49,334 nucleotides of DNA from Candidatus Brocadiaceae bacterium (GTDB lineage Bacteria; Planctomycetota; Brocadiia; Brocadiales; Brocadiaceae). Of this stretch, positions 2 through 30,981 are shown one piece after another; positions within the stretch are counted from its first letter, which is position 1, and each line of letters starts with the position of its first letter. The notes under the pieces are model-generated. The model was not told the DNA's origin. It ran no database searches and saw nothing but the letters and a program-made list of their open reading frames with translations. The translations under genes and the position numbers were made by a program. Where the stretch lies: positions 1-49,334 of the forward strand of contig JACVXV010000003.1 of assembly GCA_015661205.1 (NCBI GenBank), given 5' to 3'.

Positions 2-115
2 TTCGGAATCGTAATCAAGATGTTCTACAAGGAGCACGAGCCCGCGCACTTTCACGCTGAGTACCAGGGCCAGCGAGGCAAGTTCGACCTCACCGGTCGA
101 GAGGTGGCGACATGA
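2..115 (+). pseudogene. DUF4160 protein, internal fragment
   Basis: The frame opens at the window edge and reads 37 residues before TGA, including EHEPAHFHAEY, the His-rich core typical of DUF4160 proteins, then FDLTGREV. DUF4160 proteins usually run on for about 25-30 more residues (a leucine-rich helix and a HRxEL-type end); here the match stops abruptly. The stretch is clearly richer in G and C than the rest of the window. The 3' end meets a cas2 fragment on the other strand at about 107-115, so both genes are cut at the same point. DUF4160 genes often pair with a DUF2442 gene; the 16-codon frame starting at 112 (ATGA overlap) is not a convincing DUF2442. Confidence 0.6.
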
Positions 116-210
116 ACAGAATTTTGTATGTGATGGAGGTAGCCGCGGCAGAGCTTTAACATCTTTCCACACCTTTTTTTGTCTACGTCATACACAACAA
201 CAACGTACAT
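52..210 (-). pseudogene. cas2: Cas2, N-terminal fragment fused to foreign sequence
   Basis: Reading leftward from ATG at 210, the first ~32 codons encode MYVVVVYDVDKKR followed by a helix ending RGYLHHIQNSV. This is the ferredoxin-like first half of a Cas2 spacer-integration protein, with the catalytic-site Asp of the YDV motif. After QNSV (near 115) the similarity ends and the frame runs through the antisense of the DUF4160 fragment to a stop at 52. Normal Cas2 is 85-95 residues, so about two thirds is missing and the product cannot form the usual dimer. A good Shine-Dalgarno (GGAGGGG, 8 bases before ATG) remains. It follows cas1 in the same direction, the standard cas4-cas1-cas2 order. Confidence 0.75.
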
Positions 211-566: not shown

Positions 567-1559
567 TCACCACCAGATTTTAAACCCCTCATACTCTTGC
601 TCACCAATCAGGTGTTTGACCAGTTTATAACACTCCAATCTGATAAGATACCGGTAAGAGACCTGTCTCTCAAGCTTCTTATGGTTGATCATGGTCTTCA
701 ACCTTTCGTCGTACTCCTTAACAACCGTCTTTCTCCCCTTCTCATCAAGGTAACAGCAATTAACCTCCGTCATAAAATCTTTCTCGGTAATCTGCTGCCG
801 GTTAAGTATCGTAAATATGGTTCTGTCGCTTAGAATAGGCTTAAAGACCTCTGCCAGGTCGAGACTCAGGGAAAACCGTCGTTCGCCAGGCTCGTGGAGA
901 TAAGAGATAAGCGGGCTTAACTGGGTATGGTATATTTCACTAAGGCACGTCGTGTAGACCATCGAGTTCAGATACGAGATCAACGCATTGGTCATATTAT
1001 CCGGCGGCTGCTTTACCCTGCGTTCAAATACTATCTCCTGATCAATGATGGTGGGCCACGCCTTGTAATAGGTGTTTCTGGTGTTTCCTTCGATGCCCAT
1101 CAACTCCTCTACGGCCTCTGTTTTCTCAATCTGTGACCTGAAACCCTCAATGGTGTTGATATAGTCATCCACCCCTTTTCCCCTATTGCCGTAGTATCTC
1201 AGGTTCTTCAGGATATTGAAACTCGCCGCTTCAATAAACGCCTTCGCAAGGACGAGCCTCTTCTGGCGGCTCGTATAGTGGTTCACCTGTTTTACCAGGA
1301 GTTGTCCTGAGTTTAAGTATTCTCGCGGATAATAGCTGCCGGAATAAAAACCGTAGTAGTTGAATACATGAACCGGTATGCCTTTCTGGGCAAGATAATT
1401 AAAAAGTTTCGTATTGAAGTCGATCTCACCGAAGGCGTAGAGGGCTTCTGTATTCTCAATGGGTATTACGACCTTAGAACCGTCTTCCTTTTCAAAGAAG
1501 ATGGTATTATCCTGGCGTTTCAGGCGACCGCTGTTAAAGATGTAATAGTTTTGTTTCAT
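567..1559 (-). CDS. cas1: CRISPR-associated endonuclease Cas1 (type I-B-like)
   Basis: A 330-residue Cas1 integrase, the metal-dependent enzyme that with Cas2 inserts new spacers at the CRISPR leader. The N-terminal YYIFNSGRLKRQDNT is the beta-sheet start typical of I-A/I-B Cas1. Metal-site candidates are E157 (MGIEGNTR), H222 (YLHEPGERR) and D234 in the following SLSLDLAEVFKP segment, so the catalytic set looks intact. I place the start at 1559: the frame stays open to 1619, but those 20 codons are translated 9-bp repeat (LNGLNG-type), and MKQNYYIF matches the family start. It lies downstream of cas4 and upstream of a broken cas2, so new spacer uptake from this locus is probably impaired unless another Cas2 acts in trans. 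Confidence 0.95.
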   Translation of the reverse strand: MKQNYYIFNSGRLKRQDNTIFFEKEDGSKVVIPIENTEALYAFGEIDFNTKLFNYLAQKGIPVHVFNYYGFYSGSYYPREYLNSGQLLVKQVNHYTSRQKRLVLAKAFIEAASFNILKNLRYYGNRGKGVDDYINTIEGFRSQIEKTEAVEELMGIEGNTRNTYYKAWPTIIDQEIVFERRVKQPPDNMTNALISYLNSMVYTTCLSEIYHTQLSPLISYLHEPGERRFSLSLDLAEVFKPILSDRTIFTILNRQQITEKDFMTEVNCCYLDEKGRKTVVKEYDERLKTMINHKKLERQVSYRYLIRLECYKLVKHLIGEQEYEGFKIWW

Positions 1560-1566
1560 GAAATAA

Positions 1567-1699
1567 CCGTTTAAACCGTTTATATTGATAAAGCAATTCC
1601 AGCAGTTTAAACAGATCAATCAGTTCAAACGGTTAGCGGCTTGAACTGCATACGCAGCTTGCGCTGTTTAAACTGCTTCATCAGTTTGATCTGTTTCAC
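1567..1699. repeat. Degenerate 9-bp tandem repeat array filling the cas4-cas1 gap
   Basis: About 15 nonamers in register: TTTAAACCG, TTTATATTG, ATAAAGCAA, TTCCAGCAG, TTTAAACAG, ATCAATCAG, TTCAAACGG, TTAGCGGCT, TGAACTGCA, TACGCAGCT, TGCGCTGTT, TAAACTGCT, TCATCAGTT, TGATCTGTT. The unit orientation flips near 1633-1640, giving the array an overall inverted-repeat character. It occupies the whole space between the cas4 stop and the cas1 start and covers the place where the cas1 ribosome-binding site should be; I see no clear Shine-Dalgarno for cas1. Confidence 0.85.
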
Positions 1700-2227
1700 T
1701 CAAATCCAGCACATATCCCCATAACTGCAATTCTTACACATCTTCATTCTCTCCGCCGGCGGGGGCAATTCGGCGTCCATAATCCCTTTTATCCCAGTCA
1801 GAATCGCCTGGATTTTCTCGTCGTCCCCCGGCTCCAAAAACACGTCCAGGGTCTTTCTGAGCTTTGGATAATTAATCTTACCGGTAATTCCTTCTACGCC
1901 TTTCTGCTTCAGATACCAGAGGTAATACTTCAACTGCCAGATATGCGGTTCTTCCACCGAGTCAGACTTCTTCACCTCGTGAATAACCCTGTCCTTGCCG
2001 ATGAAGTCAATCTTAATGGTACCGTCAATCTCAACCTCCTTCTTCTCCCGTTCATAAGACGTCTCGTGGATCAGCTTACCCAGGTAGACCGCGTCGCTCG
2101 TATGCTCCATCGAGATACCGTGGGAAAAATACCAGAGCTTCTTTTTGCAGATGAAGTAGTAGTTAACCTGGCTGCCAGTGAAGCGCAGCGACGTTGGTAT
2201 TTGAGTATCCATAGTTTCTGAACGCAT
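1700..2227 (-). CDS. cas4: CRISPR-associated exonuclease Cas4
   Basis: A 175-residue RecB-type nuclease with an iron-sulfur cluster, known in this family for trimming prespacers and choosing PAM-proximal ends. An early Cys lies in FICKKKLWYFSHG and three C-terminal Cys in MCKNCSYGDMCWI complete the 4Fe-4S ligand set. HExxx-type (LGKLIHETSYER), D of KIDFIG and the EVKKS segment give the His/Asp/Glu-Lys nuclease motifs. The start at 2227 has AGGAG 12 bases upstream; ATG at 2212 (MDTQIP) is a possible alternative but has no ribosome-binding site. It is separated from cas1 only by the 9-bp repeat array. Confidence 0.93.
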   Translation of the reverse strand: MRSETMDTQIPTSLRFTGSQVNYYFICKKKLWYFSHGISMEHTSDAVYLGKLIHETSYEREKKEVEIDGTIKIDFIGKDRVIHEVKKSDSVEEPHIWQLKYYLWYLKQKGVEGITGKINYPKLRKTLDVFLEPGDDEKIQAILTGIKGIMDAELPPPAERMKMCKNCSYGDMCWI

Positions 2228-2435: not shown

Positions 2436-3000
2436 CTATACCCGGCGCTCTATTATTTCGTTCCCCATGCAACACTTTTTGTATTTCTTTCCGCTCCCGC
2501 ACGGGCAGGGTTCATTACGTCCGACTTTTGGCATATTGTTAACAATGGGTTCTAATACCTCTTCCACATCCTTTTCCACAGCCTCTTCCACTTCAGTTTC
2601 TTCATAAGTTCTCTTGTTGAGCTTCGGGTAGGCGTCCTGCTCTTTTTCCCACCGTTCCTGCCGTTGCCTTATCTGCTCTTGGTCATAAAAAGACAGCCAG
2701 TTTTGGGTATAATAAGCAGTCAATATTATATTTATCAGACCACTTTATCGCAGCCATAAGCGGTGCAATAACCTCTTGCGTACCGATAGCGCCCAGGATG
2801 TAAACGGCATGGATAGGCGCCCATATTTCCGGTCTATCTTTTGTCCAGCGCTCCTTTTCTAACACAATGTTCGAGAGCGGCTCAATCATACGTTCACCGC
2901 GCCTTACCAATTCATCCACCGCCTGACGCGGCAAGCGGTCATCTTCAGTAAAAAGCAGATTTACCAGGGTATCGTTGTCCAGTGTTGCGTAGTCCATCAT
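2436..3000 (-). pseudogene. HEAT-like/SEC-C motif protein, frameshifted
   Basis: Two frames read as one gene. The upstream part (3000 to about 2724) begins MMDYATLDNDTLVNLLF after a good GGAGGG ribosome-binding site and contains APIHAVYILGAIGTQEVIAPLM, an alpha-helical HEAT-type unit. The downstream part (2723-2436) begins [22 protein letters not shown], carries an acidic Glu/Val linker, and ends in [19 protein letters not shown], a zinc-binding SEC-C motif like that at the SecA C-terminus. The frames cross at 2683-2723, where some central HEAT sequence also seems to be lost. Function unknown; it probably arrived with the HEPN/nucleotidyltransferase genes just upstream. Confidence 0.65.
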
Positions 3001-3130
3001 TCAGCCCTCCCCGAACAGCGTAATATATCTTGCTGGCTGCATCAGATGGATAACCACCATTCATCAGACTTTCGGCCACTTTAATGGCATGTTCAGCCTT
3101 TCCTATGAGTTTTTGAACCTCTTCCATCAT
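2945..3130 (-). pseudogene. HEPN-domain protein, truncated
   Basis: The start overlaps the stop of the nucleotidyltransferase gene by ATGA (3127-3130), the tight coupling usual for MNT/HEPN pairs. The first ~38 residues (EEVQKLIGKAEHAIKVAESL, then ASKIYYAV) match the first two helices of a HEPN protein. After YYAV the frame runs into the ribosome-binding site and start of the next gene, so the remaining helices, including any R-x4-6-H RNase motif, are missing. HEPN partners are normally 110-140 residues. The toxin half is therefore very likely dead, probably by a deletion that fused its 5' end to the HEAT/SEC-C gene. Confidence 0.65.
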
Positions 3131-3765
3131 ACGGAGACACCCTCTTCCTGGACATGCTTATAAAAGGAAAAGCCCCTGACGCTGGCATCGTTAAACTCTG
3201 GCTCAGTAAAGACCTTGAGGGCAATCATGGGTTTAAAGTCATAATCCCACATTACCCTATAGGCAATGTCATCCATTTTTTTTTCGATATCGGGCGTTTT
3301 TGTGGTTACCAGAACAATAAGGTCAAGGTCTGAATCTTCAGTCGCATCTCCCCTAGCCCTCGACCCAAAGACGATCAATTTGGTTACCAGAGTTCGAATA
3401 TCGTCCGTAAGCCTCCGCTTAAATTCTAAAACGATTTCTTTGTCTCGCTCTTTTATAGTCTGTTTTTCCAAATTTTCTTTAATCATCGTATCCCCTGTGT
3501 AGTAACAGTTCACGAAGTTCTCCCTTTCTGCCTCAAGATTATCAAGGGCAAAGTAGTCGTCGTATGCAACTTCTTCTCTAATAAACCCCTCTTTTGCCTT
3601 TGAATTAAGCGCAAAGACGTCTTTTACACCATATTTCTTCGCTATGAGAAATATATCTGCCTCAATTTTAGCCAGTTTTTGATGAAGATATATCCTCAAA
3701 CTCTCTTTTAGAAGTTTATTCGGGTTCAAGTAGAACTCTTTCGCTAGGGTATCAATAACAGTCAT
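3127..3765 (-). CDS. MNT-type nucleotidyltransferase with N-terminal helical domain
   Basis: A 212-residue protein. Residues 124-153 hold the nucleotidyltransferase signature LIVFGSRARGDATEDSDLDL (GS at 134-135, acidic pair D146/D148), as in MntA antitoxins that modify HEPN toxins. Residues 1-90 are a separate helical domain (LLKESLRIYLHQKLAKIEAD, then a YGV segment) that resembles small antitoxin-like proteins; this may be a fusion of two neighbouring genes. An internal ATG at 3486 (residue 94), preceded by AGGGGAT, could yield the transferase domain alone. Its HEPN partner directly downstream is truncated. The pair sits inside the cas cluster between cas5 and cas4. Confidence 0.75.
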   Translation of the reverse strand: MTVIDTLAKEFYLNPNKLLKESLRIYLHQKLAKIEADIFLIAKKYGVKDVFALNSKAKEGFIREEVAYDDYFALDNLEAERENFVNCYYTGDTMIKENLEKQTIKERDKEIVLEFKRRLTDDIRTLVTKLIVFGSRARGDATEDSDLDLIVLVTTKTPDIEKKMDDIAYRVMWDYDFKPMIALKVFTEPEFNDASVRGFSFYKHVQEEGVSV

Positions 3766-3912: not shown

Positions 3913-4674
3913 TTAAATACTTTTTTTAAATTGCGTAAAGTGTTTGCTGCTCTGTACAAAGCTGTACGGGATAACAGTTTCTCTTAGTATACGATGCTTT
4001 CCAAGTTCGACTTTTCCGCTGCTATAGGTGCTAATGCGATCAAATCCATCCTTGTCTTTACACAAGATCTCCCCAAAATCATCCAGGTATTGAGACCATT
4101 GAAATTTGCCAGCCAGCAATCGTTCTTCCGGCTGTGGAAATGTGTACCCTTCGGAAAGATTCCCTTTACAAATCGAATCCCCAATATATTGCCAGAAAGA
4201 GCCTCTCTTCCCTATGCAATTAATGTGCCCCCCCACTCTTCTTATCAGTGATACTGCATCTTCTGAAAGACCATTAAGCCCGATTGCCACCTTTAGTTCA
4301 CCATTGGTGTAAAAACAGAACTCCCGATAGGCAATGGTGGAGCCATAGAAACCTCTAGGAGCGTCTCTTTCTTCCTGCCGAATTTTTATAAAGGTATTCT
4401 GCACGATACAATCTGCCGGTGGGCTGAATCTTATTTCGCAGCCTTTAATCAGATCGAATACCTGTCGTGCCTTGATTTCGGCATTATTTTTATCAAAGAC
4501 CCTAAAACAGGCATCAATTAAGGTCATCTTAAAAGTATACGGAGTTGGAACCAAAAGCGTCTTTCCACCCTTGCTTGTAGCATGGGTCATTCGAAGGGAA
4601 AAAAGGCTCACCGGTAAATAGCTTAGAATGAGCCATTCTCCCATGCCCCGGTCAATGAGTTTTTCCTCAACCAT
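3913..4674 (-). CDS. cas5: CRISPR-associated protein Cas5
   Basis: A 253-residue RAMP-fold subunit expected to cap the 5' handle of the crRNA in the Cascade complex. Recognisable features are the early hydrophobic strand (GEWLILSYLPVSLFSLRMTH), the KTLLVPTPYTFKMTLIDACF segment typical of a Cas5 helix start, and a RGFYGSTIAYREF strand pair. The start at 4674 is chosen over ATG 4686 because GGAGG, embedded in the last codons of cas7, lies about 6 bases before it, with one base between the cas7 stop and this ATG. Downstream is about 150 bases containing decayed repeat sequence, then the nucleotidyltransferase gene. Subtype by eye is I-A-like, uncertain. Confidence 0.82.
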   Translation of the reverse strand: MVEEKLIDRGMGEWLILSYLPVSLFSLRMTHATSKGGKTLLVPTPYTFKMTLIDACFRVFDKNNAEIKARQVFDLIKGCEIRFSPPADCIVQNTFIKIRQEERDAPRGFYGSTIAYREFCFYTNGELKVAIGLNGLSEDAVSLIRRVGGHINCIGKRGSFWQYIGDSICKGNLSEGYTFPQPEERLLAGKFQWSQYLDDFGEILCKDKDGFDRISTYSSGKVELGKHRILRETVIPYSFVQSSKHFTQFKKSI

Positions 4675-4675
4675 A

Positions 4676-5647
4676 TTAGCCTCCATAAGGCTGAACCGTG
4701 CCTATGATATCTGCCATTACCCCGCTAAATGCAGCCAGTCCATCAAATGGTGTAACTGCTATCGGGTCGCCGGTTGTGATCCTATTGAGATTACCGGCAA
4801 TCTTTTTTATCTCATCTCGATAATTTGGATTCAGTCCGCTTAGGACTGGGGCAGGCAACGTGCTTGCAGATGTGGTTACAACGCCCGTGAAATCAAGGAC
4901 GTGTGGGTGTTGTGTGTTGCGATGCGCTCCGGTTGGTTTGATAAAGGTCTTGAGGACACTCATCAAAAGCGCCTTTATTCTGGACAACCTATCAATACCA
5001 TCCACATAAGCAAGGGTAATGTCATTTCGTCCAACTTTGTATAGGTCTATATTTGCAACTACAGCATATTGGCCGGAAGACGCGGGACGGTGAAAGATAT
5101 TCTGCCCAAGATTTTCTCCTGCGCCGGAGCCTTTTCCACGGCCTTCAGGCACATATTTGGCGTGGAAGTATGATTCTGTTCGTGTGTTATTAGGGCATCC
5201 CACAACCCAGCCAAACTCAATGGCTGACTTGCGTGAAATGGACCGTCCCTTTCCGCCTATTTCGCTGGTAATTAAAATCCCTTCAGCATCGTCAATGATG
5301 CACTTCTTGATTGCCTCAGAGAGGATTTCGCTATCCTCTGCGCCCTCTTTAAAAGTATTCTTTGTAAATGTTTCATCACCACAAATCCTGTTTGCATTAA
5401 ATGTTACACAGCCTGCACATAAAGGCAGATTGGTGGAATTGGCGCCTTTTGCCTCCATAAACAAATGTTCTGCCTGGATGTGCTTGAACATATCTCCTGA
5501 GACGGCGTTTACCGTATGATTCTTGCCTGTTGCATCCACAATTTCAACCATACGTGTCATCATGGTGTTGCCTTCGCTGCCTTCGTTGTTAAGGGCGTGC
5601 ATGTTCATTGTTACGATACCTGAAATACTTAAAGAGTGCAGTTTCAT
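4676..5647 (-). CDS. cas7: CRISPR-associated protein Cas7, DevR/Csa2 family
   Basis: A 323-residue backbone subunit; several copies would polymerise along the crRNA in the interference complex. The N-terminus SLSISGIVTMNMHALNNEGS is the hallmark of the DevR/Csa2 family, followed by GNTMMTRMVEIVD and SGDMFKHIQAEHL. A Cys-rich loop (LCAGCVTFNANRICGD) and a Gly-rich loop (EGRGKGSGAGENLGQN) follow. GGAGG lies upstream of ATG 5647, which begins 2 bases after the cas8 stop. It is flanked by cas8 and cas5 with almost no spacing, so these form one translation unit. DevR proteins elsewhere can autoregulate their operon; nothing here shows that directly. Confidence 0.88.
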   Translation of the reverse strand: MKLHSLSISGIVTMNMHALNNEGSEGNTMMTRMVEIVDATGKNHTVNAVSGDMFKHIQAEHLFMEAKGANSTNLPLCAGCVTFNANRICGDETFTKNTFKEGAEDSEILSEAIKKCIIDDAEGILITSEIGGKGRSISRKSAIEFGWVVGCPNNTRTESYFHAKYVPEGRGKGSGAGENLGQNIFHRPASSGQYAVVANIDLYKVGRNDITLAYVDGIDRLSRIKALLMSVLKTFIKPTGAHRNTQHPHVLDFTGVVTTSASTLPAPVLSGLNPNYRDEIKKIAGNLNRITTGDPIAVTPFDGLAAFSGVMADIIGTVQPYGG

Positions 5648-5648
5648 A

Positions 5649-7343
5649 TTACTTTACCTCCTTGATTATTGTGTTTGGATTTTCGGTTTCAATCTTTGGC
5701 GCTCTTGCATAGCCATAGGCCAAAAGGAGCATACCGACTAGTTCACTCTGGTCTTTCCCATTATTTTCGATAAGAGATATCACCTGATCAAGGTCTTCTT
5801 TTAAAACGGTATGATATTTACCTTCAAGCCTGTTTGTCACTTCCCAGTTATAATCCTGAACAAACTCGGCCAACACCGGAACAAATTCTTTTGCCCCTCC
5901 TTTAATTTTTTGCTTCCATTTTTGGGCTAGACCGAAACGTACATCCCATTTCTTGTTGTTTTGTTGCTGTAACCACAGGGCTGTTATAGTAGCATTTCTA
6001 ATAGCCCAAGCAACACTTAAGAATCCCGCATTTTCTACAATCTCTTTCATTCCGTACCCCCTTTCAAAAAGTATAGTTAGATTTTCAGTAGAAAATTCTT
6101 TTACCCATTCTTTTTTACCGCGTTTTTCCATAGTATGAACTGCAAATTTCGTCAAAAAATCAAGCAGGTCTGACACGCCACCAGTTGTAAGCCACTTTCT
6201 GTATTGTTGAAGAATAGGGACATCGCCGGAATGGGTCTCATCCAACGAACCTAGGGAGCCTTGTTTCCTCTGTCCGTTTTCGTAATAACCAATATGTTCC
6301 CGGATGATTCCCAAAAATGCATTTGCATCTTCACTGCTATCAATTCTAAACCAACTTGGCAGGGGCAAAAAGGCGTCGTTCATTAATGCCGCCGCTGTTC
6401 CCATGCCTTTAAAGTATGCCTGCCGTAATCCTCTCACAACCTCCGCAGGTCTGCGCCCGCGCAAACTGATCTTTCCCATAGTATCTTGTACAACGTCCGA
6501 ATGCATTATCAGTTCTTCAACCAGACGCAATGCGGCCTCTATGTCAAGCCGTATCCCACCCCACAGCCTCAAATCGAGAAGTTTTTCCCTGAGTATGGAC
6601 AACGCCTTCGTCCCTATTTCAGCAGGCTCGATGACGAAGAGTTTAAAATCGTCTCCATTACGGTAAGGAAGCATTGCAACAGAAGCCCCTCTAAATTTCA
6701 TCCATTCGGCAAAAGGCTCCACTACTTCACTATTGATAGAGCTAGGCGATTTGTAAATAGTCTTGGTTGCATGCAATCCTTTTCCTGATGAAGGATTAAA
6801 AAACTGGCTGTTGCTTACTTCCGGATGTTCAAGTTGTTCTAGTTGTCCAAGCGGTATTAGCGCACTCTGTGCCCATTTGAGGGTTTTTCCAGGATTTTGA
6901 ATCACCCATTGATAGACGTCTTTATCGGAACTCCAGCCTTTTCGCATTGACTCAAGGATTGCCGAAGGACCGTATTCACGATTGACGCTTTCAACTGGAG
7001 ATAAACCTTGTTCTTCAAGCGCTTTATTTAATGCTTCTTTTTTCTTTTTATTGCTCTTTTCCTTTGCTTTTACCCGGCCTTGTTCTTCTTCATAATCCAG
7101 CACCCTCGTACCCTGAGGTTTTTCCTTTTCCTTGCTTTTTCGCCAAATGTAGTAAAATCCAGGCGACGGTGGTCTCCACTGTTCATCAGGCACATCCGGT
7201 GAGAGCTTGATTTGAAAATGAGTGCCCATATCATGGATAATTGATCCAACTCCGGTTACTTCTTCAAGTAGGCCTGCGGTGCCTATGGCCCTCAAGGAAT
7301 CGGCATAAGTCCCCGTTCCTTTGGGAATTTCTATGACCTTCAT
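5649..7343 (-). CDS. cas8: Probable Cas8 large subunit of type I effector
   Basis: A 564-residue protein placed where the Cascade large subunit belongs, between cas3 and cas7. I do not see a family motif strong enough for a subtype; the call rests mainly on position, length and lack of any other large-subunit candidate. Visible features: a Lys/Glu-rich linker around residues 70-110 (KAKEKSNKKKKEALN), then an all-helical C-terminal two thirds such as might carry a fused small subunit. ATG 7343 overlaps the cas3 stop (ATGA) and has GGAGGGAAAGG just upstream; the longer open frame to 7415 is not used. Large subunits read the PAM and recruit Cas3. Confidence 0.72.
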   Translation of the reverse strand: MKVIEIPKGTGTYADSLRAIGTAGLLEEVTGVGSIIHDMGTHFQIKLSPDVPDEQWRPPSPGFYYIWRKSKEKEKPQGTRVLDYEEEQGRVKAKEKSNKKKKEALNKALEEQGLSPVESVNREYGPSAILESMRKGWSSDKDVYQWVIQNPGKTLKWAQSALIPLGQLEQLEHPEVSNSQFFNPSSGKGLHATKTIYKSPSSINSEVVEPFAEWMKFRGASVAMLPYRNGDDFKLFVIEPAEIGTKALSILREKLLDLRLWGGIRLDIEAALRLVEELIMHSDVVQDTMGKISLRGRRPAEVVRGLRQAYFKGMGTAAALMNDAFLPLPSWFRIDSSEDANAFLGIIREHIGYYENGQRKQGSLGSLDETHSGDVPILQQYRKWLTTGGVSDLLDFLTKFAVHTMEKRGKKEWVKEFSTENLTILFERGYGMKEIVENAGFLSVAWAIRNATITALWLQQQNNKKWDVRFGLAQKWKQKIKGGAKEFVPVLAEFVQDYNWEVTNRLEGKYHTVLKEDLDQVISLIENNGKDQSELVGMLLLAYGYARAPKIETENPNTIIKEVK

Positions 7344-9742
7344 CCTTTCCCTCCTTTCTGGCTTCTTTGGTCTGCCAGCCTGAGCCTTCTTACAAGAAAT
7401 ACATAAAGAGGCCACAATCCGGTATCTTCGCTGTTTGTGCCACTAAAAATCAATAGATCATTTTGGAAGTTACCCTGGGTAAGCCTATCGGGGTTGTCAG
7501 TCAATGCAATACCCCCAATGGAGGATGGCAATGTTTCATCGACCCATTTCTTTACGCCGTCAATAAGCTTAAAGTTTTCCAGCGATTCCGTAAATGCCCC
7601 ATGATGTCTTGCAATAGCCGTCCAGGCTGCAACAGCATTATCGCCAAAATTTCCTCTCAACCACCCTGCCACTGAATATGCGCCTTCAGAAGCATGAGGC
7701 GGCTGTTTCGGATATTTTTTCTTATCTTCAAAATCCATGTCTGGCTCGTAATCTGAATGAGCAAGGGGTTCATCAGTCAACTTCTGAGGGTTCTTGTGGT
7801 GCTGCCACTTTCTTACACCATCCTGCCACTTCATGGAGAGCTTTCCCACATCATGTAGGGCGCAACAGACATCGGCCAATGTTTCTAATCGGTTGGCTGG
7901 GATTTTATATCGTTCGGCTAGTTGTGTTGCTGCATTGCTATAAAAAGGCATCATTGCCCGGCACTCAGCAACTACTCTTTGAACATGCTCCCGGTAAGTT
8001 TCATAACTGATTTTGTACCGTGGAATAGGCCGCCTCTCGAAGTACCGGATCTCTTCGCAACACCCCTTTACACCGATTTTCAAGCCAATGTCAGGGGAAT
8101 AAGAAGCAAACTCTGGATTTATAACGACAAGCCATGAAACATTTCTGATCTGATCTTTTGACGTAATTTGTTCCCATCCAAAGGTCATTTCACTTTCATC
8201 AATAATATTAGGGGTATCAACCGGATACGAAGCAATCTTTTCCCCAGAATCACGGCATTCTTCAAAAAACTGAGAAAGTTTATAAAGGCTCGAACGGGGA
8301 ACTGACAACATCCTCGGCCATTTGTCTTTATCAAACTTCAAAACATAAGGGTCATTGCAGATAATCACATTTACGGATGCCACATCCCGGACCAACTCCC
8401 TGACGGCAACTTCGTTGCGTCCGTCCATAGCCTCGTGAATCTTGGTTTTTAAAGAGTATTGATTTTGCCGGTACGATTTCAGATGCCTTTCCTCAATATT
8501 CGAATGCACCTTATCAAGTCTTTCAAGTTCTGCTGTAAAATCAAGGATTGCGCCATCCGCCGGTAACTGTTCCAGAACCTCCCTTGTATCTGAAATCAAG
8601 GACTTTTGGTCGTTCTCTTGATAGGGTCCAAAATCCGGCAGGCCTTTTTTATTTGTTAATAATTCATAAATCCAGGCAGTTCCAATTCCACGCACACCTT
8701 CATATCTTGCACAACGCCCGGCACGCTGTATAATGCTGTTCAGAGGGGCAATCTCTGTGTGAAGATTGTCCGCAGAAATATCTATCCCCGCCTCAACAAC
8801 CTGCGTGGTTACCAGGATTACATTCGTTTTAGTGGCTTCTTTTCCAAACCAACCCTTGAGTTTGTCTTCTGCCTTTTTTCGATCTTCTGAGTAAAACCTG
8901 CTATGAAGCAAGAAGACGTTGATGGTGCTACCTTCCAGGCGTTTTGTCATTTCTTCGTAAATATTCTGCGCCCTTGTAACGGTGTTGAGGATGATGATAG
9001 AACGTTTACCATTATGATGCTCAAGGACGTCGTTGATAGCGAGTGGCCTGTTTATCCACCGGTATACACGTTTTTTTTCTTTGTGAGACGGCAAACTCAT
9101 TACTTCGTCAGGAGTTAGGCTGACAAGCTGTCCTCCAAGTACCTCTTTTAATAAATCCAGACTTTTCGTTGTAAGTGTAGCCGTCATGACGACAAACTGG
9201 GAAAAAGGTTGAAGCCTATCCAGCATCTCTACGGCCGTTCTCATTGCTTTGTCAGACTCTAAAAGATGAAACTCATCAAACACAACCAAACTTCCAAGTA
9301 ATGCCCCGGCATTGATGTTCCCGACTCTCTGCGGAAGGGATACAGGACAATTGAGATAAGAAGAAAGGCACTGGTCAACGGTTGTAAATATCACATCGCC
9401 TTCAAAAAAGGGATCATCCTTTTGCTCGCCGGTTTGTATTGTTATGACAAGTTCGTCTTTCTCACCCGTACGGGCGCTTGGGTCACACACTACCCTGAAA
9501 ACCCTTTTGCAACACTCTGCAGTTTCAGCGTAAAGGGTAGTAGCTAATGTTCGAAGTGGTAAGACGTAAATTAATCTATCTACAAACGCCGTGCCTTGTT
9601 TTTTAGCCCAAAGATACGGCAATATAGCAGCCCATGTTTTCCCGCTTCCAGTAGGAGCGCGGAGGAAAATATTTCTGCCGTCAAGAAGATGTTGCGCAAC
9701 TTCTTCCTGATAAGGATAGGGGGTAAGTCCTTTATTGCTCAT
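7340..9742 (-). CDS. cas3: CRISPR-associated helicase-nuclease Cas3, HD domain at C-terminus
   Basis: An 800-residue Cas3, which unwinds and degrades target DNA after Cascade binding. The N-terminal half is a superfamily 2 helicase: PYPYQEEVA, Walker A RAPTGSGKTWA, DEFH box (VVFDEFHLLES), VMTATLT (motif III), and VVEAGIDIS...IQRAGRCAR (motifs V-VI). The HD nuclease comes last, with ALHDVGK about 170 residues from the end, then HASEGA, ARHHG and RLADQRS. This helicase-HD order is the reverse of the common HD-helicase Cas3. I use ATG 9742 because the conserved start of the helicase follows at once; TTG 9766 overlaps the abiEii stop (TTGA) and is an alternative. cas8 is coupled by an ATGA overlap. 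Confidence 0.92.
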   Translation of the reverse strand: MSNKGLTPYPYQEEVAQHLLDGRNIFLRAPTGSGKTWAAILPYLWAKKQGTAFVDRLIYVLPLRTLATTLYAETAECCKRVFRVVCDPSARTGEKDELVITIQTGEQKDDPFFEGDVIFTTVDQCLSSYLNCPVSLPQRVGNINAGALLGSLVVFDEFHLLESDKAMRTAVEMLDRLQPFSQFVVMTATLTTKSLDLLKEVLGGQLVSLTPDEVMSLPSHKEKKRVYRWINRPLAINDVLEHHNGKRSIIILNTVTRAQNIYEEMTKRLEGSTINVFLLHSRFYSEDRKKAEDKLKGWFGKEATKTNVILVTTQVVEAGIDISADNLHTEIAPLNSIIQRAGRCARYEGVRGIGTAWIYELLTNKKGLPDFGPYQENDQKSLISDTREVLEQLPADGAILDFTAELERLDKVHSNIEERHLKSYRQNQYSLKTKIHEAMDGRNEVAVRELVRDVASVNVIICNDPYVLKFDKDKWPRMLSVPRSSLYKLSQFFEECRDSGEKIASYPVDTPNIIDESEMTFGWEQITSKDQIRNVSWLVVINPEFASYSPDIGLKIGVKGCCEEIRYFERRPIPRYKISYETYREHVQRVVAECRAMMPFYSNAATQLAERYKIPANRLETLADVCCALHDVGKLSMKWQDGVRKWQHHKNPQKLTDEPLAHSDYEPDMDFEDKKKYPKQPPHASEGAYSVAGWLRGNFGDNAVAAWTAIARHHGAFTESLENFKLIDGVKKWVDETLPSSIGGIALTDNPDRLTQGNFQNDLLIFSGTNSEDTGLWPLYVFLVRRLRLADQRSQKGGKG

Positions 9743-9762
9743 TAATTGATCGAAAAGTATTC

Positions 9763-10623
9763 TCAAGAAAAAATCTTTCCCAAAGCGTTTCTTAGTTCAT
9801 CTAAAACGCGGTCACTATCTGGTAACTCGCTCAAATGGCTACCCAATGATGGTTGCCATTGCATCTTTACTTGCTTAAGCCGTCTCTCTGTAAAAAATGA
9901 TTCAACACCTTCAAAAGCAATGTTTTTGATCGAACATTTCTGTTGAAAAAAGGAGGGAATATTACCGGGTGATAGTTTGTCCTGGTAATTCACGCTAATA
10001 CACCATAGGTCGTAATAGTCTCGTGGCGCAGAGTACGACCGTTGCAAAAGGGCACGTAGTTTTTCACAAAATATTTCCATCAAATGGTATCCTTTTACTT
10101 CCGCCACTACTTTGTAACTATCGCAGTATGGATGGTGTATTGCGTGAGAAATATGCGGTAGCAAAATTATTTCTCTTAATGAAATTTCAATCTTTATTGA
10201 GGTTGTCCATCGGCTTGGGGCTGTCTGCTTTTTGGTTGGATGATTAATTCCCCAAAAAGGTAGGATAAACGAATATCCCATCAATAAATCGTTAAAAAGC
10301 AATTCTTTATCTTTTATTGAAGCATAACGAATTCCAACATCCTGATATACCATTTCTTGAACTGCCTGTAACGACGCTATCACAACCTTTTTATCAAGTG
10401 GCTTTGTGGCGGAGAAATCAAGGTCTTCCGAGAAACGGTAATCCTTGAAATAGAGTTTCTTTAAGCACGTCCCACCTTTTAAAATCAGGCAATCTTTTAG
10501 AAACTCATTTCGATAAATCCCATTAAGGTAATGTCCAAGCGCCCAGTCCTTATCCACCGTCTCTATCGGGATGCCCCATTCCTTAGACTTTTCCCTTAAA
10601 TCCTTAATATTGAACTCTCGCAA
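9763..10623 (-). CDS. abiEii: AbiEii-type nucleotidyltransferase toxin
   Basis: A 286-residue AbiEii-family protein, the toxin half of a type IV toxin-antitoxin system known from phage abortive infection. The two nucleotidyltransferase motifs are clear: LILKGGTCLKKLYF (GGTCLKK at about 50-56) and RFSEDLDFSA (65-72). A later EIFCEKLRALLQR...APRDYYDLW block is also typical of the family. The 5' end overlaps the antitoxin gene by 20 bases, and the 3' stop overlaps a potential TTG start of cas3, so the pair is wedged tightly into the cas operon between cas6 and cas3. Both halves look full-length. Confidence 0.85.
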   Translation of the reverse strand: MREFNIKDLREKSKEWGIPIETVDKDWALGHYLNGIYRNEFLKDCLILKGGTCLKKLYFKDYRFSEDLDFSATKPLDKKVVIASLQAVQEMVYQDVGIRYASIKDKELLFNDLLMGYSFILPFWGINHPTKKQTAPSRWTTSIKIEISLREIILLPHISHAIHHPYCDSYKVVAEVKGYHLMEIFCEKLRALLQRSYSAPRDYYDLWCISVNYQDKLSPGNIPSFFQQKCSIKNIAFEGVESFFTERRLKQVKMQWQPSLGSHLSELPDSDRVLDELRNALGKIFS

Positions 10624-11413
10624 CTGCCTTTATCTCCTCATCACTGAGATTCAGTAAAAGCTTCCACCGGCTGAGGTACGCCCCAACTTTTGGGGACATC
10701 GGGTCTAATAGGGTATACCTTGGCAATAATACTTTTTGGGCATGTGCGCGAAAATCCTCAAAACCATGCAAATCCAATATCTCAGATAGGTAGCCAATAC
10801 GCTTAATAACGGTATTATTATTAAGTTGCAAAGCATATTGCCAAAGCTTTTCCTTGTCGAGTTTTTCTTGAGCTAAATATAACCCTTTAACTGCCTCAGT
10901 AAATCCCCCGGCAAATTCCGGGTAATCAAGGCAATCTAAAATTGTTTTTTCGATGTCCGTTATGAAATAAAAATCACGCCCGTTCCACTCTTTTCTTAAT
11001 CCAAAAAATTTGTGCGAAGAAACACAAATAAACCTGTATTGAACATTAAGACATTTTTTGGATGTTTTTCGTCTTGTAGTTTGAACATACACGGTATTGT
11101 GAATTTGTTCCGTTAAACCGTAGTAATTCAAAGCTGAACCATACGCTATTGATGAAGGTTCAACTAATCCTGTACCAATTAAAAAAGAGTTAATTTCATC
11201 AGATGCAATTACTGAGGATAAAATATACTTACCTTTTTCTAACTGCTCAACCCATCCTTTTCGCTTTAAATTATTTAAAATCTTTGACCAGTTCTTGAAT
11301 TGCATGCCTTCTTTAATAATTTTTGTACTAAGGATAGTCCATCCTTCCGACTTAATAAATTCCCAAAATTTTCTTTCCTGCAAAGAAATGCCTTTTGTGT
11401 AAAAACGTCTCAT
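10604..11413 (-). CDS. abiEi: AbiEi-like antitoxin, winged-helix regulator
   Basis: A 269-residue protein with an N-terminal winged-helix-like segment (FKNWSKILNNLKRKGWVEQLEKGKY, residues about 38-65) and the AbiEi-type C-terminal region: IAYGSALNYYGLTEQI, YVQTTRRKT, then FYFITDIEKTILDCLDYPEFAGG. AbiEi proteins repress their own promoter and counter the AbiEii toxin. It overlaps the toxin gene by 20 bases, as usual for the pair. The 240-base gap upstream (11414-11652) holds a 9-bp repeat array next to cas6; no obvious operator is seen. The insertion could guard the cas operon against loss, which is an inference. Confidence 0.82.
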   Translation of the reverse strand: MRRFYTKGISLQERKFWEFIKSEGWTILSTKIIKEGMQFKNWSKILNNLKRKGWVEQLEKGKYILSSVIASDEINSFLIGTGLVEPSSIAYGSALNYYGLTEQIHNTVYVQTTRRKTSKKCLNVQYRFICVSSHKFFGLRKEWNGRDFYFITDIEKTILDCLDYPEFAGGFTEAVKGLYLAQEKLDKEKLWQYALQLNNNTVIKRIGYLSEILDLHGFEDFRAHAQKVLLPRYTLLDPMSPKVGAYLSRWKLLLNLSDEEIKAVARVQY

Positions 11414-11576
11414 ATATTACCTTTTATGTAAACAATCCATTCCGTAATAGTTGTTTTTAATACGATAAAGGTAACTTATGTATTACCAAAATGCAAGCAA
11501 TTTAGAAAATAAAAAAGCCCACACAAGGATTCCCCGTCCAACTAAACAATGGCATGATTGCCTCTGGTTAAAATAA

Positions 11577-11690
11577 CAGTTCAAGCTGAATAAGCCGTTC
11601 AAGCCAACAAAAACTGATTAAGCGGTAAAAACAATTAAATAGTTTAAACCGATCAAACGGTTTTATCGGTTTTCACCGTTTGAACCACTT
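11577..11690. repeat. Degenerate 9-bp tandem repeat array over the 3' end of cas6
   Basis: About 13 nonamers in register: CAGTTCAAG, CTGAATAAG, CCGTTCAAG, CCAACAAAA, ACTGATTAA, GCGGTAAAA, ACAATTAAA, TAGTTTAAA, CCGATCAAA, CGGTTTTAT, CGGTTTTCA, CCGTTTGAA. The cas6 stop codon (11653-11655) lies inside it, so the last ~12 residues of Cas6 (QTVKTDKTV) are repeat-encoded. The left part fills the gap towards the AbiE genes. Confidence 0.82.
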
Positions 11691-12549
11691 CCACATACCC
11701 GCATCCCATGCTATTGTTTTGTCCAAAGCCGCATTCAAGGCCGATTCTTATTAATTCTCTTTGTCCGGTTACGGTAAAAGGTTGTAGTGTCCCTTTTATA
11801 TTGATGGATTTCGTACTGCCGTCCAATCCTTTCTTAAAGACGGTAAATTGTTTCACAGATTTTCCTTTGATAGCATGGAAATCGAATTGTAACGGTTCTC
11901 CTTCAAAGGGTTTGCCGTAAAGGGTATCGTATTTGTGGAGGAGGTTTTGATTAAGGAGTTCTTTGTAATCTTCGTCTCCGGGGAACAGGTAGACGTCTTG
12001 TTGGCCCGGAGGCATGGGCTTTTTAATAAAGAGGGGTGATTCTAAGGGGTGCAGGGTTAGGCTGATTAAGCCGTTCAAGCCGTTTAAGCTGCTTGCACTG
12101 TTTGAATTATCCAACGAATCAGGAAGGGTTTCCACCCGATGGATATTTAGCATTTGCCGTCCAAGGACTATCTTGTTTCCTTCATGGAATATACCCTCAA
12201 TTAAGTGCTGAATAAATGTATCAACCGGGGATGCGATCTGAAAGGAGAATGTAAAGGGATTGGTTTGAGATGCGTTAAATGAAAAGCCATCCCGCCTGTT
12301 TGAATTGCCCGAACGGTTTGTACTCATTGAACGCGTGATTTTGATTGGGCCGTCGAATGTTATGCCGGAAAAGACAAAGAGCTTGAACCTCTTGTCTTTT
12401 TTGTAAACAAATCCTTGCTGGTGAAGCCATTGAGCATAGTCAGGGTTTGACCTGGATAGGAAACCGTAGATCATGGCCTGTATCTGGTGCTGGTAGTTGA
12501 AGTCGATGATGCCGGCTTTATCTGCCGAGAGGGTTATTTTTATCCTCAT
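11653..12549 (-). CDS. cas6: CRISPR RNA endoribonuclease Cas6
   Basis: A 298-residue Cas6, which cuts precursor crRNA inside each repeat. The Gly-rich loop near the C-terminus (GLECGFGQNNSMGCGYVEVV) is diagnostic for the family. An N-terminal His (YQHQIQAMIYGFL) is a candidate for catalysis. The gene carries two in-frame blocks that look like inserted 9-bp repeats: SMSTNRSGNSNR (DNA 12296-12334) and DNSNSASSLNGLNGLIS (DNA 12062-12115). Its last residues are also repeat-encoded. Typical Cas6 proteins are 230-270 residues, and these blocks roughly account for the excess. It is the first gene of the cas cluster; I see no strong Shine-Dalgarno before ATG 12549. Confidence 0.9.
   Translation of the reverse strand: MRIKITLSADKAGIIDFNYQHQIQAMIYGFLSRSNPDYAQWLHQQGFVYKKDKRFKLFVFSGITFDGPIKITRSMSTNRSGNSNRRDGFSFNASQTNPFTFSFQIASPVDTFIQHLIEGIFHEGNKIVLGRQMLNIHRVETLPDSLDNSNSASSLNGLNGLISLTLHPLESPLFIKKPMPPGQQDVYLFPGDEDYKELLNQNLLHKYDTLYGKPFEGEPLQFDFHAIKGKSVKQFTVFKKGLDGSTKSINIKGTLQPFTVTGQRELIRIGLECGFGQNNSMGCGYVEVVQTVKTDKTV
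12062..12115. repeat. 9-bp repeat block inside cas6 (6 units)
   Basis: CTGATTAAG, CCGTTCAAG, CCGTTTAAG, CTGCTTGCA, CTGTTTGAA, TTATCCAAC in exact 9-base register within the cas6 coding region. Being a multiple of three, the block keeps the frame and encodes NSNSASSLNGLNGLI on the minus strand. Confidence 0.8.
12296..12334. repeat. 9-bp repeat block inside cas6 (4 units)
   Basis: CTGTTTGAA, TTGCCCGAA, CGGTTTGTA, CTCATTGAA followed by CGC, in register, within the cas6 coding region. It encodes the Ser/Asn/Arg-rich segment SMSTNRSGNSNR, which would form a polar loop between predicted strands. Confidence 0.7.
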
Positions 12550-30474: not shown

Positions 30475-30981
30475 AAATTCCCTAAAAATATTTACCGGTG
30501 TCTAGCGAAAGACTTAAAGATTGAAGGCATCCACCCCGACCTTTTCGTATGATTACGCTTGAGTCATGCAGCAACCTTCAGTCTTCAGCCCATACGTGTT
30601 AAGCTAAGAAACGAAAAGGCGGACACACTCAACCTAACCGTATTAAGCAACACAGCCCCAAAGGGGCGCAATATGACAGCCCAGGGCAGCGCCCTGGGTT
30701 TGGCATTACGTTAGTAATACAAGCCCTGAAGGGGCGACATTGAGGGCAAAACGACGGTTCATTCCGCTATTACGCCCCTTCAGGGCTTGTCTGTTTTTCC
30801 GTGTCCCCAGGGCGTTGCCCTGGGCTGAGCTATTTCGCCCCTTCAGGGCTAACAGAAACAAAGGTAAGGTTTGGTGGTAATTATAGGTTTCTTAACTTAA
30901 CACGTATGGCCTTCAGTCTCTGTCAAAATAACGGTGGTTTACTTTATTACATTTTGAGAAATAAGTCAAATTCTTTTCAAT
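30475..30981. repeat. Repeat-rich intergenic region
   Basis: No gene is apparent. Between about 30656 and 30850 are paired palindromes: GCCCTGAAGGGGCG or its complement (about 30733, 30775, 30837; a variant at 30659) and CCCAGGGCAGCGCCCTGGG-type hairpins (about 30681 and 30806). The two halves are arranged in opposite orientation, so the whole could fold as a large cruciform. CTTAACACGTATGG and its reverse complement lie outside it, near 30893 and 30590. Confidence 0.7.

Follow-up and report, generated by a model that had tools for sequence, protein, structure and literature searches.

The left end of a contig from a Brocadiales (anammox-group) MAG carries a cas2 gene that is cut after 32 codons and joined to part of a DUF4160 gene. 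This raises the question of whether a type I CRISPR-cas operon lost its adaptation module in the cell or only in the assembly. The initial annotation had left the matter as an alternative between a recombination that removed most of cas2, perhaps together with the array, and a chimeric contig end. We analyzed the complete contig (C196:1-49334, 49,334 bases, hereafter the window), whose base 1 is a contig end, in the context of its MAG of 3.9 Mb (292 contigs, 97% completeness). The chimeric contig end was favored, and a recombination that removed cas2 and the array found no positive support. The cas2/DUF4160 junction fits best as an ordinary assembly artefact of an already known kind, not a real feature, and positions 1 to about 110 are very probably a short chimeric tail.

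Truncated cas2 and its intact counterparts in related genomes

The minus-strand ORF at 52-210 matched Pfam PF09827 above its cut-off (E 8.8e-11), with coverage of model positions 1-36 of 74. The peptide encoded by bases 210-115 of this strand, MYVVVVYDVDKKRCGKMLKLCRGYLHHIQNSV, is the N-terminal part of Cas2; it has the conserved VVYDVD motif in its N-terminal beta strand and, where the first half ends, QNSV. A full-length Cas2 is a ferredoxin-like domain of about 85-90 residues; the window contains a fragment of it, native to this genome, whose remainder is missing. Orthologs of the neighboring cas1 were found in 11 genomes of the order (78-93% amino acid identity), and an intact cas2 encoding 86-88 residues directly followed cas1 in every one of them. 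Collinearity with these relatives extended in the window from 210 to 115, precisely 32 codons, with 81-94% amino acid identity in the first 32 Cas2 residues. This agrees with the earlier observation that the Cas2 match ends at QNSV. From base 114 on, the DNA was unrelated to cas2 of any of the 11 relatives, in which the next codons invariably encode FEGEI. A stop codon or a frameshift was ruled out as the end of the gene, since the DNA itself turns unrelated at base 114.

Related genomes had been proposed as a check for an intact cas2 and array, and both were present in 11 of 11. Built on the repeat GTTTCAATTCCTTATAGGTTCAATGAAAG or closely similar forms of it, the relatives' arrays range from 8 to more than 100 units, and their near edge lies about 0.4-0.7 kb beyond the cas2 start. 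The window thus has the gene order of the Brocadiales type I cas4-cas1-cas2-array module (G031, G024, G015 and others), with the identities given above for cas1 and the cas2 start. Unlike in these relatives, however, only the first 32 codons of its cas2 are present before the contig end, and the assembly contains no array there. None of the 11 relatives shared the junction, and none had a DUF4160 gene near its cas loci, which ruled out DUF4160 as a usual neighbor of the array in this order.

To the right of the junction, every frame of cas1, cas4 and the effector genes was open. The intact cas1 (567-1571, minus strand) encodes a type I-B-like Cas1b of 334 residues (TIGR03641, 461 bits; Cas1b in PADLOC), and an intact cas4 (Cas4b; 1700-2227, minus strand) was recognized by domain and profile matches and by PADLOC. 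The intergenic stretch between cas1 and cas2 (211-566) contains short repeats, composed of 9-base CCGTTCAAA units and GGGACACGGGCACCGTGTCCC palindromes. Degenerate repeats of this 9-base type and the palindromes flank cas1 intergenically on both sides, at 216-560 and 1561-1634.

The DUF4160 fragment and the position of the break

The plus-strand frame at 2-115 exceeded the curated cut-off of PF13711 and matched the domain's first half (model 1-35 of 65, E 4.4e-10). Bases 2-106 encode the peptide FGIVIKMFYKEHEPAHFHAEYQGQRGKFDLTGREV, which contains the family signature FGI-x-I-x-M...EH-x-P-x-HFHAEYQG. The C-terminal half that homologs possess (SKTA-x-x-LIREW...IEPL) was absent after about position 107, and the start of the gene lies off the contig, to the left of base 1. 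Bases 1-106 therefore represent only the middle part of a DUF4160 gene, probably a foreign one, joined at the contig tip; besides its missing ends, its affinity and GC content set it apart.

The nearest homologs were genes of Nitrospira, Nitrospiraceae and Acidobacteriota, with 81-83% amino acid identity and up to 83% nucleotide identity. Over bases 2-106, the two closest genes (both from Nitrospirota) were 81-83% identical at the nucleotide level versus 27-31% beyond; the acidobacterial gene showed 70% nucleotide and 81% amino acid identity over the same bases. Past the junction, nucleotide identity across these three genes was 15-31%. Homologs within the order itself (62 genomes) reached at most 68% amino acid identity and had a GC content of 30-41%, compared to 58% here. 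One of them, at a DUF4160 locus of genome G046, encodes the same open frame as the record named Candidatus Scalindua arabica, which places that species in the order and identifies the MAG as a member of Brocadiales. DUF4160 genes are patchily distributed and occur sporadically in many Brocadiales genomes. No second copy of this stretch was found elsewhere in the MAG. A donor at near-identity was not detected in the collections searched, where the best match was 83%. An exact search with the 38-base tail yielded none in viral contigs, and for plasmids a DNA search found no donor and a protein search gave at most 46% identity.

The ends of the two gene matches are no more than about 8 bases apart. 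According to alignments with relatives on either side, the break falls between 106 and 115, with a junction zone of about 8 bases (107-114) that belongs to neither side. The initial annotation was accurate in this respect: it had put both breaks at about 107-115 and had the DUF4160 match stop near GREV, and similarity indeed ended at about 106-107. The junction is approximately 110 bases from the contig tip, so that the tail is shorter than a typical Illumina read. The left 110 bases had also been described as clearly richer in GC than the rest. The difference is real (58% in the first 112 bases versus 45% in the contig) but was slightly overstated, as 351-550 also reaches 58-59% through the GC-rich intergenic repeats. 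Because of this second stretch, and because 2.3% of all 112-base windows are equally rich, GC content is weak evidence by itself; taxonomic affinity is the stronger point.

Origin of the junction

Several observations favor a chimera: two genes are cut mid-frame at a single point, one of them has foreign affinity, the tail is below read length, and the join is close to the end of the contig. This picture requires no assumption beyond a chimeric read, or a false join in the graph, at the contig end. In the scenario we propose, the 5' part of cas2 became connected to an internal stretch of a DUF4160 gene, either within a read or in the assembly graph, after which the contig ended. The DUF4160 piece would have come from another, GC-richer member of the community, probably Nitrospira-like or belonging to Acidobacteriota. 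In the cell, the cas4-cas1 operon most likely runs into an ordinary cas2 (86-88 residues) followed by a Brocadiales-type CRISPR array; the remainder of cas2 and the array would have been lost from the assembly at the break, and GTTTCAATTCCTTATAGG-type repeats are expected beyond cas2.

In a mock-community metagenome, chimeric sequences were always located at contig ends (PMC8172020). The window resembles these cases in that a short, compositionally foreign sequence at the tip is joined mid-gene and has no counterpart in relatives, and its two sides differ in both affinity and composition (Brocadiales versus Nitrospirota/Acidobacteriota, GC 0.58). However, the joins in that study were between closely similar genomes, whereas the two sides here are unrelated. 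For an anammox reactor community, both Nitrospira and an acidobacterium have been described together with Brocadia (PMC4821891).

A position near the tip does not prove an artefact, because genuine junctions with repeats terminate contigs too, and the patchy distribution of DUF4160 makes horizontal transfer into this species possible. A real recombination or deletion might then have put horizontally acquired DNA bearing DUF4160 in place of the array and the 3' half of cas2, leaving interference intact and this adaptation module dead. The sporadic DUF4160 genes of many Brocadiales genomes are in line with such an event. So is the content of the MAG: a protein search for the missing 56 residues of cas2 found nothing in the rest of it, and a search allowing up to 3 mismatches found the array repeat nowhere in it, although both searches were positive in the relatives used as controls. 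This absence is expected under either reading, however, and does not separate them. What does bear on the choice is that the event would be unique to this genome, being seen in 0 of 11 relatives, and that the join cuts the DUF4160 gene too, an outcome that the clean insertion of an element would not give. The event would also require DNA from a GC-richer lineage, and the genes that the piece resembles belong to other phyla. Only one side of the junction is assembled, and no gene of a mobile element, such as a transposase, was present next to the join. For a break placed at random in a contig of 49 kb, the chance of landing no more than 115 bases from one of the ends is only about 0.5%. We consider this explanation quite unlikely. 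Its specific form, a recent recombination in an anammox-group bacterium that exchanged the 3' half of cas2, along with the array, for a Nitrospira-like DUF4160 gene and so deprived a type I interference operon of its own adaptation module, is very unlikely.

The junction could also be a strain-level variant, present in one part of the population while another part retains an intact cas2, with the contig tip having taken the minority path. Fragmented MAGs often collapse strains, which makes this conceivable in principle. Yet a variant of this kind requires the same unsupported recombination event, and the bin lacks any contig with the intact alternative cas2; such a variant is extremely improbable. 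With the chimeric contig end as the best explanation, the adaptation module that seems to be lost in this MAG should not be treated as a biological finding, and the Nitrospira-like fragment should not enter the tally of horizontal gene transfers to anammox bacteria. A real break would add one more orphaned CRISPR effector operon, a case of modest interest.

Adaptation genes elsewhere in the genome

The suggestion that adaptation is broken while interference remains intact was not supported: the effector frames are open, but the break in cas2 is best explained as an artefact. Even a real break would not imply broken adaptation for the organism, because the MAG has other cas1/cas2 loci, on contigs C189 (with a 13-unit array) and C161. 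Further cas2 or cas1-like genes were found on C269 and C281. In the distant second cas1 (L046, G000:C161, 1264-2253), a single TGA lies in frame; the cas2 that comes after this gene is intact.

Effector cassette and other features of the contig

The effector region (3913-12549, minus strand) comprises cas5, cas7, cas8 and cas3, then abiEii/abiEi, then cas6. The cassette is I-A-like, with Cas8a-, Cas5a- and Csa2-like (Cas7) proteins and a Cas3 that has a C-terminal HD domain. It was common to only one relative, G031, at 81-88% identity; counterparts of the 3913-12549 genes as a whole were 53-88% identical there. Of the remaining close loci, those long enough for comparison had only a distant cas3 (about 25-31%) between the conserved cas4-cas1-cas2 and cas6. 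As the effector set is shared with G031 only and other relatives differ beside the same cas4-cas1-cas2, this comparison of gene content suggests that the cassette may have been exchanged next to a conserved module. The cas operon includes the AbiEi/AbiEii toxin-antitoxin genes (9763-11413), which separate cas3 from cas6, and G031 has them in the same place (53-62% identity). Between cas4 and cas5 (2436-3765) are small genes for a SEC-C-like protein, a repeat-like protein and a nucleotidyltransferase (PADLOC PDC-S09); homologs of the SEC-C-like and repeat-like proteins adjoin cas4 in several relatives.

Two matches to the Acido-Lenti-1 RNA (RF01687) were detected at 30654-30698 (minus strand) and 30806-30850 (plus strand), in opposite orientation and about 100 bases apart. 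On the right, the contig ends (49217-49334) within a dispersed repeat that spans about 110 bases or more and had no Rfam match. This repeat gave 24 listed matches in the MAG (77-96% identity where long) and has copies in several relatives, with an ELNSLECLEK-like frame in the aligned copies. A stop inside a dispersed repeat is a normal cause of assembly breaks.
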